From a virus, in IMG/VR virus record IMGVR_UViG_3300043446_001004, positions 1 to 42,677 of that record: 42,677 bases of DNA. One strand, given 5' to 3'. Shown here piece by piece: positions 2,114-42,677 of the stretch. Under the pieces are notes generated by a model. The model made no database searches and was not told the DNA's origin. It saw only the letters and a program-made list of their open reading frames with translations. How positions within the stretch are numbered: the first letter of the stretch is position 1; each line of letters opens with the position of its first letter. The position numbers were made by a program, and so were the translations under genes.

Positions 2114-2135
2114 CTAACTCCAATTCTTTCTATCT

Positions 2136-2172
2136 ATAAAAACGAAACCCTGGAACCTTTCGGTGTCCAGGG
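2136..2172 (-). terminator. Rho-independent terminator with GAAA tetraloop
   Basis: On the minus strand CCCTGGA pairs with TCCAGGG, extended by ACC/GGT closing a GAAA tetraloop with one bulged C. It is followed by TTTCGTTTTTAT. This is a textbook intrinsic terminator for the transcript starting near 2332. Confidence 0.85.
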
Positions 2173-2199
2173 TGTTGGGAAAAATTGTTGCTAATCAAC

Positions 2200-2331
2200 T
2201 TACCTTTCCGAACACCCCCGACAATCCCACTCTGTATTAATGCGACTGGGGGTACCAGTATAACCACAGGCAGACATCTGCACTGGGTTATGTGCATTAA
2301 ATTTCAACAGTGACGATATAAGTGTTTTCAT
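2200..2331 (-). CDS. Possible 43-residue Cys-containing peptide, leaderless
   Basis: ATG 2331 to TAA 2200-2202 gives a 43-residue peptide beginning MKTLISSLLK. Cysteines at 22, 37 and 40, with the last two as DCRGC, suggest possible metal binding. The ATG falls 7 nt after the -10 hexamer, so the transcript would begin at or just before it and carry no ribosome site. Competing view: the same DNA encodes a strong RNA hairpin, and the ORF may be incidental. Family unknown. Confidence 0.35.
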   Translation of the reverse strand: MKTLISSLLKFNAHNPVQMSACGYTGTPSRINTEWDCRGCSER

Positions 2332-2338
2332 GTTTTGT

Positions 2339-2367
2339 ATTGTAAACGGTTTCTCAGTTGTTGTCAA
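2339..2367 (-). promoter_or_regulatory. Early sigma70-type promoter
   Basis: Minus strand TTGACA (2362-2367), 17-bp spacer, TACAAT (2339-2344). The -35 hexamer is a perfect consensus match. It drives the unit ending at the terminator at 2136. Confidence 0.8.
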
Positions 2368-28501: not shown

Positions 28502-28522
28502 TTTGTATGCTCCTATATATGG

Positions 28523-28530
28523 TATTTATG
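28523..28530 (-). promoter_or_regulatory. T4-type late promoter (CATAAATA), tail tube
   Basis: Minus strand octamer 21 nt before ATG 28501, with AGGAGC as ribosome site. It immediately follows a long hairpin. Confidence 0.65.
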
Positions 28531-28532
28531 CC

Positions 28533-28560
28533 AACCTGGCCATGTTTCCATAGCCAGGTT
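28533..28560. terminator. 12-bp hairpin with GAAA loop between sheath and tube genes
   Basis: AACCTGGC (28533-28540) pairs with GCCAGGTT (28553-28560); in the minus-strand RNA four more pairs (UAUG/CAUG, one G-U) close a GAAA tetraloop. There is no U-run on the minus side, so it may protect the sheath mRNA 3' end as well as terminate. Confidence 0.7.
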
Positions 28561-28570
28561 TTTCACTACC

Positions 28571-31500
28571 TTAAATTGCCCCAGTGTTCATCACACGGAT
28601 TGGAATGTAGATAAATTCCACACTCTTAACTGGACTAATAGCAATATCAACATACAACTCGTTGCGGTCAATACGGCTTGGGGTGTTGTTGCTGGTGTCG
28701 CAAACAACAACATAGTCGTAAATCGCACGTTTTGCTACCAAGTCGTTCAACAAACCTTCTGTGGCTTGTTTGATCTGATCACGGATGATCTTGTCGTTGG
28801 GTTCGAAAATATAGCCTTTGGCCATAGTGTTCAAGCTCATACGCAAGTATGTAATCAAACGTGCTACGTTAATGCGATCCAATGCACTGGTTGTACCACT
28901 GCGTGTCTTGTTACCGTAGTTACACAAACCAACACCGTTCAAGAAGGTCAGTGGGTTCACTGCATTTTCATACAATGTATCACGTAGGCCTTCGCTAACA
29001 CCAATCTTAACCAACTCACCAGACTCGGAATCAATGTAACCAAGTGCTGTTGCGTTGTCGATTAGACCGCGGCGTACACCAGCTGGTGCAAACCATGGAT
29101 AGCTGTTGGCGTCACTCTTGATTAGAGTGCGTAGTGCCATGTGACTTGCTGGCACAACCACAGCGTTGCCACTTAGGTCGTTGCTCAATCCGCTTGGATA
29201 GAACACACCCAGGTATGCACTGGCTGTAGCTAGACCGTCAACACCAGCATACTTGCTGTCGTTGTTTACCCAGTTTAGAATGTCTGAGCTGGTTGGTGTC
29301 AAGCGCATTGGGCTATCACCAATAACGAAACCAGTTTCCTTACGATCAGTGTTCAATGCAACCATGTTGGCAATAGTTTCTGGGTAACCAGGTGTTGCAA
29401 ACAAGTTGATCACACGTTGTTCTTCACGGATCTCAGTGCTAGTATCCAGTGCTGCCTTTAGTGCTTCAACAACCATGTTGCGAACTGCCTGGCGACCACC
29501 GTACATGCTACCGTCATCTTTGTTGCCGCTGACAGTTACCCAGGCGCTATCAACATCTGGTTGTACTTCATCAGGGAATGTGGTGCTGTAGTAGTTAGAA
29601 CGGAATTCTTTAACGTTGTAACCTGAACGGCGTGTATTCCACAGCAACATACCACGTGGGTACAATGCAGGATTTGGAGCATCAATATCCAAATAATCGC
29701 TTTCTAACAAGTCAGTGATCAGTGGTTTAGCATCCATAATTGGATCTGTTGTACCATCTGTGTCCCAACGTGCATCAGCAAATGCAATACCGTTTGAGCT
29801 GGTTTGGTCTGTCTTGTCAATATAAACCCACTGGTTACGTGAGCTTACTGTCTGATAACGATACAAACGTGGGTAATCTTCTAGACCGGCTGCACTTGTA
29901 TCCAACCACAAGTCACCCAATACTAGTGCAGAACCATCGCTCTGTACTGTGGGCTCGCTAGCGGCAGCAATAACACCTGCTGGATCTGTGTTAGCTAGGG
30001 TATAACCACGGATATCTTTTACAATACCACTGCTGTGGTAGCCGCGCCAGTCAGTACCATCATGAATCATGATGTCCACTTCGCTTGGTGTACCGAAATA
30101 CCACTTGGTGCCATCAGCTGGATCAGCCACAGGTTGTGTATTACTTGCGGTGTATGTCAACCACTTGAATCCACTGTATTCATATACTGAATTGCCAGAA
30201 GGATTGATTGCTTCAACACCATCAACTGATGTAGGAATGTTCAAATTAGCAATCACGCTACCGCTGCCTACATCAGCAAACTTAATTATACCACCATATT
30301 GGTGGCTGATAGTAACTGTGCCATCAGTATTAACTTGAGCGCCGATACCCCATGGGCTAGCACTTAGTAAATCGCCTACAAAAGCCTCAGCATCAGTACC
30401 AGTTAGTGTAACACGAATAGGTAGTGTATAAGTTGCACTACCAGTACGAGAAGTGTACACATCAAACTGATGTCCAACAGTGAATGTTGGTGCTGTCAGA
30501 CTGGTGAACGACGTTGCACCAGCTTGGAAGCGCACACGCAGGCGCTGTGTAGCAGACTCGTAACCCAAAGCAGTATAACTGCTGTTGTCATGTGCATAAA
30601 CTGTACCAACAGGAATGTTAATACCGCCACCAGCCGCATCGTTTTCATAAATGAATTCAACGTCATCTGCATGATCTTGTGTGGCAATTCTGTTCCAGCT
30701 TGCTGAACCAGTTAGATACTGCTTGACCACCAGGTTAGTACCTTCGTTGACCGCAGTGCGCTTGCGCCATACGCTGCCAGTTGGGCGTGGTACTGAATCG
30801 TCAGCATACCAGTCAGGGATCACAGTGTGATCTGAACTGTGGAAGTCAGGGTTAATGTATGTGCCAGCAGTGATACCCAGTGTTGACAATGGTGTACCAG
30901 AGCTGTTGCTGATAGAAATTTTACCGTCTTCAGTTGCACCATTACTCATGGCATCTGGAGATGCATACAAATACAACTTGCTAGACACACTGCGAGCAGT
31001 AACACCAGCAATGTTGGCTGAGTTAATGTTGCTAACAATAGTTGTCAAAGCACCACCAGTAAATGTGACAGTTGCTGTGTTAATTGTTACTGCTGTATTG
31101 GCTGCAACGATGGGACTAGAAGCAGTACCAATAATTGCGGCGCGGCTGATTTCCCAACCAGGGCTGCCAACCAATTGCCATGTGTTGTCATAACGCTTGT
31201 AGTACAATGGGTTGTTTACGTTAGATGCAACCACTGCATAAGCACCAATTGCACCAATGCTGGCTTTGGGCACACCACCGTCTAAATCTGCTGTGTCAGT
31301 AATAACGATTGGGGTGATAGCACTGAAGTTCTGAGTGGTTTTATTCCACTCGAAGTAACCCCATGCTGTGCTGGAAGTATCTAGCCAGTATGTTTCGTCT
31401 GCTACAGCACCTGTAGGACGAGTTGTTGTTCCAACCAGTTCAGCTGTGTCAATGTCAGCACGTAACACATAAGCGCGGTTTGCCACGCCCAACATGCTGT

Positions 31501-34896: not shown

Positions 34897-34925
34897 ATTA
34901 TAGCGCCTTTTGGGCCACATGTCAA
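34897..34925 (-). promoter_or_regulatory. Early promoter, perfect consensus
   Basis: TTGACA (34920-34925), 17-bp spacer, TATAAT (34897-34902) on the minus strand. Both hexamers and the spacing are ideal. Confidence 0.88.
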
Positions 34926-39569: not shown

Positions 39570-41685
39570 ACTCTGCTACTCCTTTAAATGCGCCAGCCTT
39601 GCGTTCTGCTTCCTGGACTTGTTGTTTGTCATATGTGAACCCTAGACGTTCTAGAGTTGCCACCATGTTCATGTGCTCAGACAAGTTCTGATTGGTTTCA
39701 ATCAGCAGGCTCTGCACATTGGGCAATATTAGATCGCCGCCTTGTATAATCAGATGTTCAATACCGTCCACATCCAGTTTGATATGATGTGGTGCCGGTA
39801 CACCCAGTTCCAGAATATCATTTAATGTGATAGTGTATGCACCCTGCTTGTATGCAGTCTTGGCTGGATTTAGATTGTGGTCTGTTTCCTGTCCCACTGT
39901 ATGACAACTGCCGCCAGCGATAAACTGGCTCAGGTTTAATTTACTAAACCCACGAGTGTTGCTTATGGCCAGTGGATATGCTGTCACATATTTGTCCACG
40001 TTGTTCAGTTTGATGTTCTGATTGAGGATGGCATAGTTCTGACTTTCGGGCTCGAACGCAAACACACGCACACGCTTGGTCACTGCGGCAAAGATAGTAT
40101 ACATGCCCACGTTGGCACCAATGTCGATCATGATCTCACCTGGCTTCATGCTGTTCAACCATTCGATAGTAATGGGCTCTTTAGTAAAGATGGTTTTAAC
40201 ACGAGCCGATGTTACATCGTTGGGAGTGGCATACAGTATGTTAACACCGCGGTGTTTAACTGCTTGCACTTCCTGACGTTCAGGTTTTGGTGCAGCCGCT
40301 GGCGCTGGTGTCGCTGTTTCAGGAACAGGTGCTGGCTTGGCTTTCTTGACAGTGCGTGGTGATACCACAATGTGAAGTTCGGCACCGCTGACAATGGTTT
40401 TTGCCACGTTAAAGTATTTGCTGAGAAATTTAGTCCACCATTCTTCACCTTCCTGAATCAAGTGGGCGTTGCGACCGTCTGGTAAGAACTTTTGTGCTGG
40501 TCCTGTATGTACAACAAAGTAACCGATCTCTTTGGTAACTCGCGCCAGGTCAAACAACACGTTGGGCAACAGTTCAGGCTCAATGTGTTCCAGCACGTCT
40601 GTACATACAACCAGGTCTGCTGGACGAGCGGCTTCGTCTTTACCAGGTACTGCTGGGTCATATTCCCATATGGGATATGGCATCTTCTTGGCTAAAGTGC
40701 CCTTACCACAGCCATAATCCAGCACAGAAGTGGTGTTTATGCTCTTGGCTAATTTGACTACCATGTCCACACGCTTTTCACCGCTAGTGCCGTAAGAAAG
40801 GTTTTCTTCATGCAACTTGCGATTCATCTCAGCATACTCTTTGCTGATCACTGGATCTGACTTGTAGGCAATCTTCTTGACCTCACGATCCTTGTAAGCC
40901 TCAGCCAACTTAGTTTTGGCCATGTGCTGTACTAGGCCGTCACCGTATAATGTAACAGTCAGGTCGTGTATCTCATGCACTTCATGGAAAAACTGACGAG
41001 CATATTCAATCATAGCGTCAGTGGCACGGAATGTCCTGCCATTAAATGGTACCTGACGGAATGTTTTGGGTGTCTTGGGGTGCTTGGTGGCATGGGTAGT
41101 GCCGTCTTCTAGTACGCTACAGTCCATACCAAATATGTGTTGATTCTTGAAACCCAAGAAACGGGCCACTACCATGGCTCTCAGTCCCACGTTACTGCCA
41201 CCGGTAAGAATCCATTCACCACGTGGGTAATGATTAGGGATGTCGTTCTTGTTGGTGTTGCTGCCGTATACGTGCCACAGTTTGACGTTCTGACCTTCTA
41301 GTAGATCAAACACCTTGGGGTGGCAACAACTGGCCATCAGATATTCCACATCCTCGTGTGGGGTGCCAATCAGATCGGCTTTGTGTGCTTGTGGATCAGC
41401 ATCCACATGCCAGGTGGGGATGATTCCACGTTCGATTAAAAACTGATGGGCACCAGCACAGCTGATGATGTATTTGAACTTTTTAATCTCTTCCCAGGTG
41501 TCATTTAGACTGGGCCCAAAAGCCACAATGGCAATGGGTTCGTCAGTGTCCTCGCCAGGTTGAATACGCCCAGGGATACGTGCAATGGCTGCTCGCATCT
41601 GGGCGTCTCGTAGTTCAGGGCTAATGACGTAATGAACTTTGGGTTTTTCGTTCTCGATATCGAATACTTTGTCTGTTTTGGCCAT
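39550..41685 (-). CDS. Three-domain fusion: DUF115-like, SAM methyltransferase, FkbM methyltransferase
   Basis: A 711-residue protein. Residues about 50-240 resemble the DUF115/MptE-like glycosyltransferase-associated fold (IAIVAFGPSLND, THVDAD-like WHVDADPQ, GGSNVGLRA, IFGMDCS). About 318-445 is a class I SAM methyltransferase (VLDYGCGKGTLA, VCTDVLEHIEP). A Pro/Ala linker (447-470) leads to an FkbM methyltransferase (about 505-711: IDIGANVGMYTIFA, FAFEPESQNYAIL, IKLDVDGIEH). FkbM enzymes O-methylate sugars or polyketides. The likely job is making methylated glycans with the adjacent glycosyltransferase. Confidence 0.85.
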   Translation of the reverse strand: MAKTDKVFDIENEKPKVHYVISPELRDAQMRAAIARIPGRIQPGEDTDEPIAIVAFGPSLNDTWEEIKKFKYIISCAGAHQFLIERGIIPTWHVDADPQAHKADLIGTPHEDVEYLMASCCHPKVFDLLEGQNVKLWHVYGSNTNKNDIPNHYPRGEWILTGGSNVGLRAMVVARFLGFKNQHIFGMDCSVLEDGTTHATKHPKTPKTFRQVPFNGRTFRATDAMIEYARQFFHEVHEIHDLTVTLYGDGLVQHMAKTKLAEAYKDREVKKIAYKSDPVISKEYAEMNRKLHEENLSYGTSGEKRVDMVVKLAKSINTTSVLDYGCGKGTLAKKMPYPIWEYDPAVPGKDEAARPADLVVCTDVLEHIEPELLPNVLFDLARVTKEIGYFVVHTGPAQKFLPDGRNAHLIQEGEEWWTKFLSKYFNVAKTIVSGAELHIVVSPRTVKKAKPAPVPETATPAPAAAPKPERQEVQAVKHRGVNILYATPNDVTSARVKTIFTKEPITIEWLNSMKPGEIMIDIGANVGMYTIFAAVTKRVRVFAFEPESQNYAILNQNIKLNNVDKYVTAYPLAISNTRGFSKLNLSQFIAGGSCHTVGQETDHNLNPAKTAYKQGAYTITLNDILELGVPAPHHIKLDVDGIEHLIIQGGDLILPNVQSLLIETNQNLSEHMNMVATLERLGFTYDKQQVQEAERKAGAFKGVAEYVFRRS

Positions 41686-41686
41686 A

Positions 41687-41752
41687 TTAATTTATTGAAA
41701 GATATTGCATTGTACAGCGTATTTACCGCAAATGCAATACCTAATAAATTAA
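41687..41752 (-). promoter_or_regulatory. Nested inverted repeats around a late promoter variant
   Basis: TTAATTTATT (41687-41696) pairs with AATAAATTAA (41743-41752), and inside it TATTGCATT pairs with AATGCAATA. The loop holds GTAAATA on the minus strand (41720-41726), a weak late promoter variant. It could act as both terminator of the fibre gene and promoter of the next. Confidence 0.5.
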
Positions 41753-42677
41753 TTACATTCGGCCCACAACCACTTCGATAGTTCCCACAATATCGCTGTC
41801 ATAATTGCCCAGTGCTTTACCAATTACTGTACCAATTAGTGGCGCACCAGCATAAGTGGCAACACCAGGAATATGGCTAGTAACCAGCATGTCACCACGA
41901 CGGATCTTGCCAACCACATTACATGGTACTCGACCTGTCAGCGCAACTGCTACACCATTTTCCAATCCTGCGTTCATCAAATAAGCTGGTTCGGTTGACA
42001 CCACACCAACTACACGGCTGTCAGCTAGTGTGGTACTGATAGTGACTTCGCTAGTTGTACCAAACACCACCACAGTGCCAGGACTGTAAGGGGCGTCGCT
42101 GGTATACTTTTCTGCCAAGTCGGCGTATTGTGCAGTAGTTGCTTTGGCAAAAACAGTGTTAAAAGTCACTGTAGCAGTACCAATGTTACCAACACCGTTG
42201 GATCCTGAGTTAACAATAGCTGTTACGTTGTTTAGAGTGTTGAGCAACAAACTGCCAGTGGTAGTGATGTTACCACTAAAACTGGGACTAGCCTTGGGTG
42301 CGTATGTAACTGATACTGAGTTACTCAATGCACTGATCAGGTTACTCAATGCATTATCTGCACTTGTTCTATTGGCTATTTCCAATGACAGTGCATTGCT
42401 GACGATTGATACTGCATTGCTGACTGTATCAATGCGAACACTCAATGCGTTATCTGCGCTTACGCGATTAACTGTCTCAACTGACAGCGCCTGGCTGACG
42501 ATTGATACTGCATTGCTGATGGTATTATCTGCGGCTATACGAGCCGCAGTCTCAACACTCAATGCTTGACTAACAACTGACACTGCATTACTGATGGTAT
42601 TATCTGCGGCTATACGAGCCGCGGTTTCTACTGACAGTGCCTGACTAACCACAGACACTGCATTGCTGACAGTATTA
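41753..42677 (-). CDS. Repeat-containing tail fibre protein (5' end beyond window)
   Basis: The frame is open to the right edge; at least 307 residues are present. The N-terminal part consists of 25-residue repeats with the pattern VSQALSVETAARIAADNTIS, giving a trimeric coiled-coil-like stalk. From about residue 115 there is a beta-rich region (PSFSGNITTTGSLLLNTLNN), then a domain with YADLAEKYTSDAPYSPG and GRVPCNVVGKIRRGDM, common at the ends of marine phage fibres. It should contact the host surface. The missing N-terminus would attach to the baseplate. Confidence 0.85.
   Translation of the reverse strand, partial: NTVSNAVSVVSQALSVETAARIAADNTISNAVSVVSQALSVETAARIAADNTISNAVSIVSQALSVETVNRVSADNALSVRIDTVSNAVSIVSNALSLEIANRTSADNALSNLISALSNSVSVTYAPKASPSFSGNITTTGSLLLNTLNNVTAIVNSGSNGVGNIGTATVTFNTVFAKATTAQYADLAEKYTSDAPYSPGTVVVFGTTSEVTISTTLADSRVVGVVSTEPAYLMNAGLENGVAVALTGRVPCNVVGKIRRGDMLVTSHIPGVATYAGAPLIGTVIGKALGNYDSDIVGTIEVVVGRM
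42341..42677 (-). repeat. 75-bp coding tandem repeats in the fibre gene
   Basis: Copies at 42516 and 42591 share a run of identical bases at 75-bp spacing; copies nearer the 3' end are progressively diverged. The array continues past the window. It is coding repeat DNA, not CRISPR. Confidence 0.85.

Follow-up and report, generated by a model that had tools for sequence, protein, structure and literature searches.

A candidate ribosome-mediated transcription attenuator at the head of a phage RNA operon

The region of viral DNA described here is probably a phage-encoded, ribosome-mediated transcription attenuator which heads the gene for a small basic protein, p54, and a conserved structured RNA, element B, and which in related viruses also heads tRNA genes. 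The stretch analysed as a whole, referred to below as the window, is a 42.7-kb virus record; in a comparison with reference phages, its large terminase came closest to that of Pseudomonas jumbo phages of the PA5oct type (about 55% identity). About 20 related units were identified in uncultured myovirus contigs, and these have in common the promoter, a leader open reading frame (ORF), the position of the leader stop codon and a pair of competing hairpins. All members of this family are metagenomic contigs, and the evidence is computational throughout. The features of the locus in the window are as follows.

2367 to 2339, minus strand: sigma-70-type promoter, TTGACA-17-TACAAT, with 11/12 matches to consensus and a predicted start at about 2332
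2331 to 2200, minus strand: leader ORF of 43 codons, with its ATG at the predicted 5' end of the RNA and its stop codon at 2202-2200
2224 to 2138, minus strand: whole terminator/antiterminator module, as matched by covariance model R2
2223 to 2164, minus strand: antiterminator hairpin of about 23 pairs, about -30 kcal/mol, z -7.1 against mononucleotide shuffles
2173 to 2134, minus strand: intrinsic terminator, consisting of a hairpin (2172-2148) with a GAAA loop, followed by a U-rich tail
2121 to 2118, minus strand: Shine-Dalgarno sequence GGAG of p54, read from the sequence
2113 to 1949, minus strand: p54, small basic protein, with a codon score above the 99th percentile of chance frames
1948 to 1774, minus strand: element B, conserved structured RNA, with its core at 1940-1870, a long terminal hairpin at 1835-1774 and a fold z of -4.2

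The original prediction, which was made from the sequence alone, placed a compact RNA between a consensus promoter and a GAAA-capped terminator, and described within it a 13-pair bulged stem and a 43-codon leaderless ORF. The promoter, the terminator and the ORF are all present at the positions listed above. The ATG of the ORF follows the -10 box after seven bases, so that transcription is predicted to start at 2332/2331, with the ATG at the start itself. The strong internal hairpin is also present, but it is larger than was first described, since it comprises about 23 pairs. Promoters of the same class lie upstream of other minus-strand genes and tRNAs in the window (at 34925, 8569, 5926, 3950, 3544 and 2547), and an equivalent promoter is found at the matching place in nearly all of the relatives. 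The 197-nt RNA folds at -68.5 kcal/mol, compared to -49.2 +/- 4.7 kcal/mol for dinucleotide shuffles (z -4.1), and none of 200 shuffles folds as low.

The evidence that carries the attenuator reading is the relationship between the two hairpins and the leader ORF. The terminator, CCCTGGACACC-GAAA-GGTTCCAGGG-TTTCGTTTTT, has a hairpin of -18.1 kcal/mol when folded alone, and because it shares positions 2173-2164 with the antiterminator, the two structures cannot both form fully. The leader stop codon sits in the 5' arm of the antiterminator, and this combination of mutually exclusive hairpins with a stop codon in the antiterminator arm is typical of ribosome-mediated transcription attenuators. 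In the folding model the terminator has a probability of 0.28 in the window, against a mean of 0.985 when the upstream 160 nt are shuffled; four of 1000 such shuffled versions give a probability of 0.30 or less, and the best fold that contains the terminator lies only about 1.1 kcal/mol above the overall best fold. A native terminator probability below that of nearly all shuffles was likewise obtained in nine of the ten members tested, the tenth, L229, having been mis-indexed. The antiterminator hairpin was found in all 11 members that were folded, the window included, and in every one of them the 5' arm contains the leader stop codon; its z values range from -4.7 to -7.1 (mononucleotide shuffles) despite differences in the inner sequence.

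Both the structure and the ORF are kept in relatives, and the pairs of the structure covary. In a 15-member alignment, which was fitted to the structure and is therefore biased in its favour, two-sided changes occur in 8 of 11 pairs, a level reached by none of 500 shuffles, and the score of 0.355 falls to at most 0.128 when the partner is slid by one column. With the eight closest members taken alone, there is only one two-sided pair. The sequences and their computed folds show which parts the unit has, that the two hairpins exclude one another, that these features are conserved and that the stop codon keeps its place.

The family came to light by scanning retrieved relatives for a promoter followed, after about 190 nt, by a terminator, the records scanned being those retrieved with three genes of the window as queries. 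This architecture scan gave the first units, L180 and L181, a third, L182, was recognized by reading, and these led to about 20 members. Since some members are more closely related than others, they represent fewer than 20 independent lineages. A covariance model built from eight close members (R1) did not reach the window, and a model built from 15 relatives with the window left out (R2) matches it at a single place, the module at 2224-2138 on the minus strand, with 21.8 bits and an E of 0.0016, which is a modest value. Matches of R2 to L264-L267 and L272 were rejected as members, having no promoter, leader ORF or element B; they look like plain terminators.

Searches with the window's unit alone as query, by protein, DNA and pattern, gave no match in viral, reference-phage, plasmid or bacterial collections. 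The best protein match, in Shigella phage SGF2, lies inside a large coding sequence without the cysteines and was attributed to chance, TACAATACAAAACATGAAA has eight exact matches in viral contigs, which also looked like chance, and nine matches from a pattern scan of bacterial genomes, in unrelated bacterial contigs, were judged in the same way. Relatives retrieved through the neighbouring 141-aa gene have no synteny at this locus, and no reference phage matched the region. The only window matches at gathering scores in Rfam 15, which includes the T-box, riboswitches and GOLLD, are tRNAs, with nothing significant for the leader or element B, and neither Pfam nor PHROGs yielded a family for the 43-aa ORF up to an E of 1.

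The leader ORF of the window encodes MKTLISSLLKFNAHNPVQMSACGYTGTPSRINTEWDCRGCSER. In relatives the leader has 37-57 codons, and most leaders begin 6-10 nt past the -10 box, which makes them leaderless or nearly so; L231 and L232 are exceptions, with about 43-54 nt before the leader and a Shine-Dalgarno-like sequence. An ATG-started ORF which opens 90-140 nt ahead of the module and closes 9-36 nt inside it is found in 18 of 18 members, while the frequency expected from shuffles is 1.3-4.4% per member. Most members share the peptide motifs YWS and (N/S/C)DR, with a few synonymous differences, and the C-terminal half is freely variable; a comparison of synonymous and non-synonymous rates in seven members indicates constraint that is moderate (pN/pS 0.67). 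The peptide of the window is without the YWS..NDR motif and its codon usage is chance-like; it is a divergent member of the family. The leader has no run of a single codon of the kind that serves as an amino-acid signal (control codons). The C..CxxC pattern noted in the original prediction is not conserved in relatives, and for this reason a zinc- or metal-site reading of it was dropped. In L232, L256, L258 and L260 the leader start is overlapped, out of frame, by a mini-ORF of 6 codons (in L232, MRKQNV) that has a Shine-Dalgarno sequence of its own, an arrangement which suggests translational coupling in those members that are not leaderless.

Downstream of the terminator, p54 starts a few dozen bases past the hairpin, and a protein of about 53 aa encoded at the equivalent place in relatives resembles it, with an hhalign probability of 72 and an E of 3.4e-5. 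A p54 gene is found in most relatives and is missing in some, for example L229 and L231, and the constant partner of the attenuator is therefore not the protein but element B. This element, with the consensus GGAAACGAGGUCC..CACUNUAAA..AAACGGGCGGAC..GGAUGAA followed by a long hairpin with a variable loop, measures about 70 nt in its core, and it is 85.6% identical between the window and L231 over 132 nt (E 6e-38); a model built without either of these (R3) finds it in both, with an E of 1.2e-5 in the window. A 53-aa ORF at 1998-1837 which overlaps element B has a codon score near chance and is probably spurious. In the predicted read-through fold of the window (2118-2156, minus strand), the terminator 3' arm UUCCA pairs with the p54 Shine-Dalgarno sequence UGGAG, which may provide a second, translational layer of control or may perhaps be due to chance.

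The attenuator and element B occur together. Element B was seen in the window and in L222, L224-L226, L228-L232, L236, L254-L256, L258 and L260-L263; it follows the attenuator in 18 of 20 members by pattern, with L263 added by model search, and in a search of 50 records all 20 that contain element B have the attenuator just upstream. One further record, G126/L259, has the attenuator without element B, which places element B downstream of the attenuator in 20 of 21 records; in L259 a tRNA array starts 33 nt past the terminator. The rest of the 50 gave no convincing match for either. Same-strand tRNA genes lie within 1.5 kb downstream in 18 of 20 members, the exceptions being the window and L254. 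In 16 of 18 units, the window among them, the stretch from the terminator to element B contains no promoter-like site (L255 and L263 have such sites), and the attenuator and element B are presumably co-transcribed.

Two further observations concern other folded stretches. Past element B in L229 and L231, the tRNA region contains further repeats of roughly 200 nt, of which L229 has two similar copies; they look structured and are neither tRNAs nor obvious ORFs. In the window, 28518-28637 and 41658-41797, both on the minus strand, are among the most strongly folded stretches relative to G+C content; they adjoin the ends of structural genes and are probably ordinary terminators.

The mechanism that we propose begins with host RNA polymerase, which would start at about 2332, and with a ribosome that could load straight onto the leader ORF, which is presumably translated, at the AUG of the predicted 5' end. 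When translation proceeds through to the stop codon at 2202-2200, the antiterminator's 5' arm would be covered by the ribosome, the terminator at 2172-2148 would form, and an RNA of about 195 nt would be released. When the leader is untranslated, or when the ribosome pauses ahead of the antiterminator arm, the antiterminator would take 2173-2164 from the terminator, and the polymerase would read through into p54 and element B and, in relatives, on towards the tRNA genes. The occlusion step is deduced from the usual footprint of a ribosome: across members the leader stop codon lies 11-28 nt past the point at which the antiterminator's 5' arm begins. Seventeen members have the conserved NDR codons, at 10-21 nt ahead of this arm, and a ribosome held at these codons would leave the arm free and favour read-through. 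The direction of control assumed here, from translation to termination, is that of trp-type attenuators. Since the output is usually a structured RNA together with tRNA genes, the state of translation is a natural candidate for the signal. A more specific version, to which we give only a rather low probability, is that the unit serves as an alarm for translation failure, in which the peptide encoded by the leader is an arrest peptide or a slowly decoded one, and a loss of tRNAs or of ribosome activity causes a stall that allows the antiterminator to form and so turns on element B and the phage tRNAs.

The layout could also be produced by a riboswitch-like or protein-controlled attenuator, in which the switch would respond to the binding of a ligand, phage protein or trans RNA to the leader's 5' half and the ORF is incidental or secondary. 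That half is well folded on its own (z -2.6), in one fold of the window that is compatible with the terminator, ACCCCC and GGGGGU pair to give an anti-antiterminator, and a UGYGAU..AUCGYA stem can be drawn in several members. An incidental ORF is nonetheless difficult to reconcile with the fact that 18 of 18 members keep the leader ORF, with both its start codon and the position of its stop within the antiterminator; L254 and L255, moreover, have no 5' stem and yet retain the peptide motif, and no Rfam riboswitch, T-box or leader family is matched. We consider this explanation unlikely.

The conservation of the ORF might instead reflect a functional microprotein, the leader peptide acting in trans while the 3' hairpins merely end and protect its messenger. 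A trans-acting leader peptide has a precedent in peTrpL (PMC7298713), and conservation of the YWS..NDR motif, along with a few synonymous differences, speaks in its favour. The moderate pN/pS of 0.67 and the freely varying C-terminal half fit such a role poorly, however, the window peptide is without the motif, and the hairpin that overlaps the terminator covaries although it would have no role here, all of which makes the microprotein reading quite improbable. Still less probable, in our estimation, is a small regulatory RNA that stands by itself and works through base pairing. The transcript is compact, strongly folded and adjoins tRNA genes, and terminated attenuator RNAs can work in trans, as rnTrpL does (PMC7298713), but the conserved leader ORF, the overlap of antiterminator and terminator and the tight linkage to the downstream RNA argue for control in cis. 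As the antiterminator hairpin competes with the terminator and the unit heads an operon (p54, element B and, in most relatives, tRNA genes), the unit is not an isolated small RNA. What survives of the compact regulatory RNA originally predicted is a regulatory transcript with a leaderless or nearly leaderless ORF and a meaningful hairpin; its free-standing character does not, and it is better described as the 5' leader of an operon.

Attenuation by leader peptides is a mechanism known from bacterial operons. The closest comparison is with the trpL attenuator of Sinorhizobium meliloti, which is leaderless, with an RNA that begins with the ATG of a 14-codon leader, and whose peptide (peTrpL) and RNA (rnTrpL) have functions in trans (PMC7298713). 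The phage unit resembles it in its leader ORF, its mutually exclusive antiterminator and terminator, its leaderless start and the presumed use of translation as the switch; it differs in its longer leader (37-57 codons), in having no run of control codons, and in preceding a structured RNA and tRNA genes, whereas trpL precedes biosynthesis genes. The arrest-peptide attenuators of mef(E)/mel and erm(K) have leaders of 8 codons or similar with Shine-Dalgarno sequences and sense macrolides (PMC4335068). There, as putatively in the phage, a ribosome paused on a short leader peptide lifts an intrinsic terminator, but the phage leader is mostly leaderless, its arrest is putative, and the genes controlled are different.

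For element B, the T4 tRNA cluster offers a parallel, since it holds the stable RNAs C and D, which are of unknown function and for which we know of no described leader ORF or attenuator; the likeness, that of RNAs in phage tRNA clusters, is by description only. The ornate RNAs GOLLD and ROOL are structured and are often found alongside phage tRNA genes (PMC12286853), but element B differs from them in its core of about 70 nt and in having no Rfam match.

Phages commonly carry tRNA arrays, the regulation of which is poorly known. Ribosome-mediated attenuation is established in bacterial operons, and an attenuator of this type at the head of a phage RNA operon is apparently new; no leader-peptide attenuator heading a phage tRNA/RNA operon was found in the open-access literature, which is weak evidence of absence. 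Element B is itself a conserved phage RNA without an Rfam match, and the anatomy of the attenuator makes simple testable predictions. If the proposed mechanism is correct, the unit would directly tie the translation state of the infected cell to the expression of phage tRNAs and a phage RNA, and if the alarm reading is also correct, host defences that cut tRNAs would be an example of the trigger during infection.
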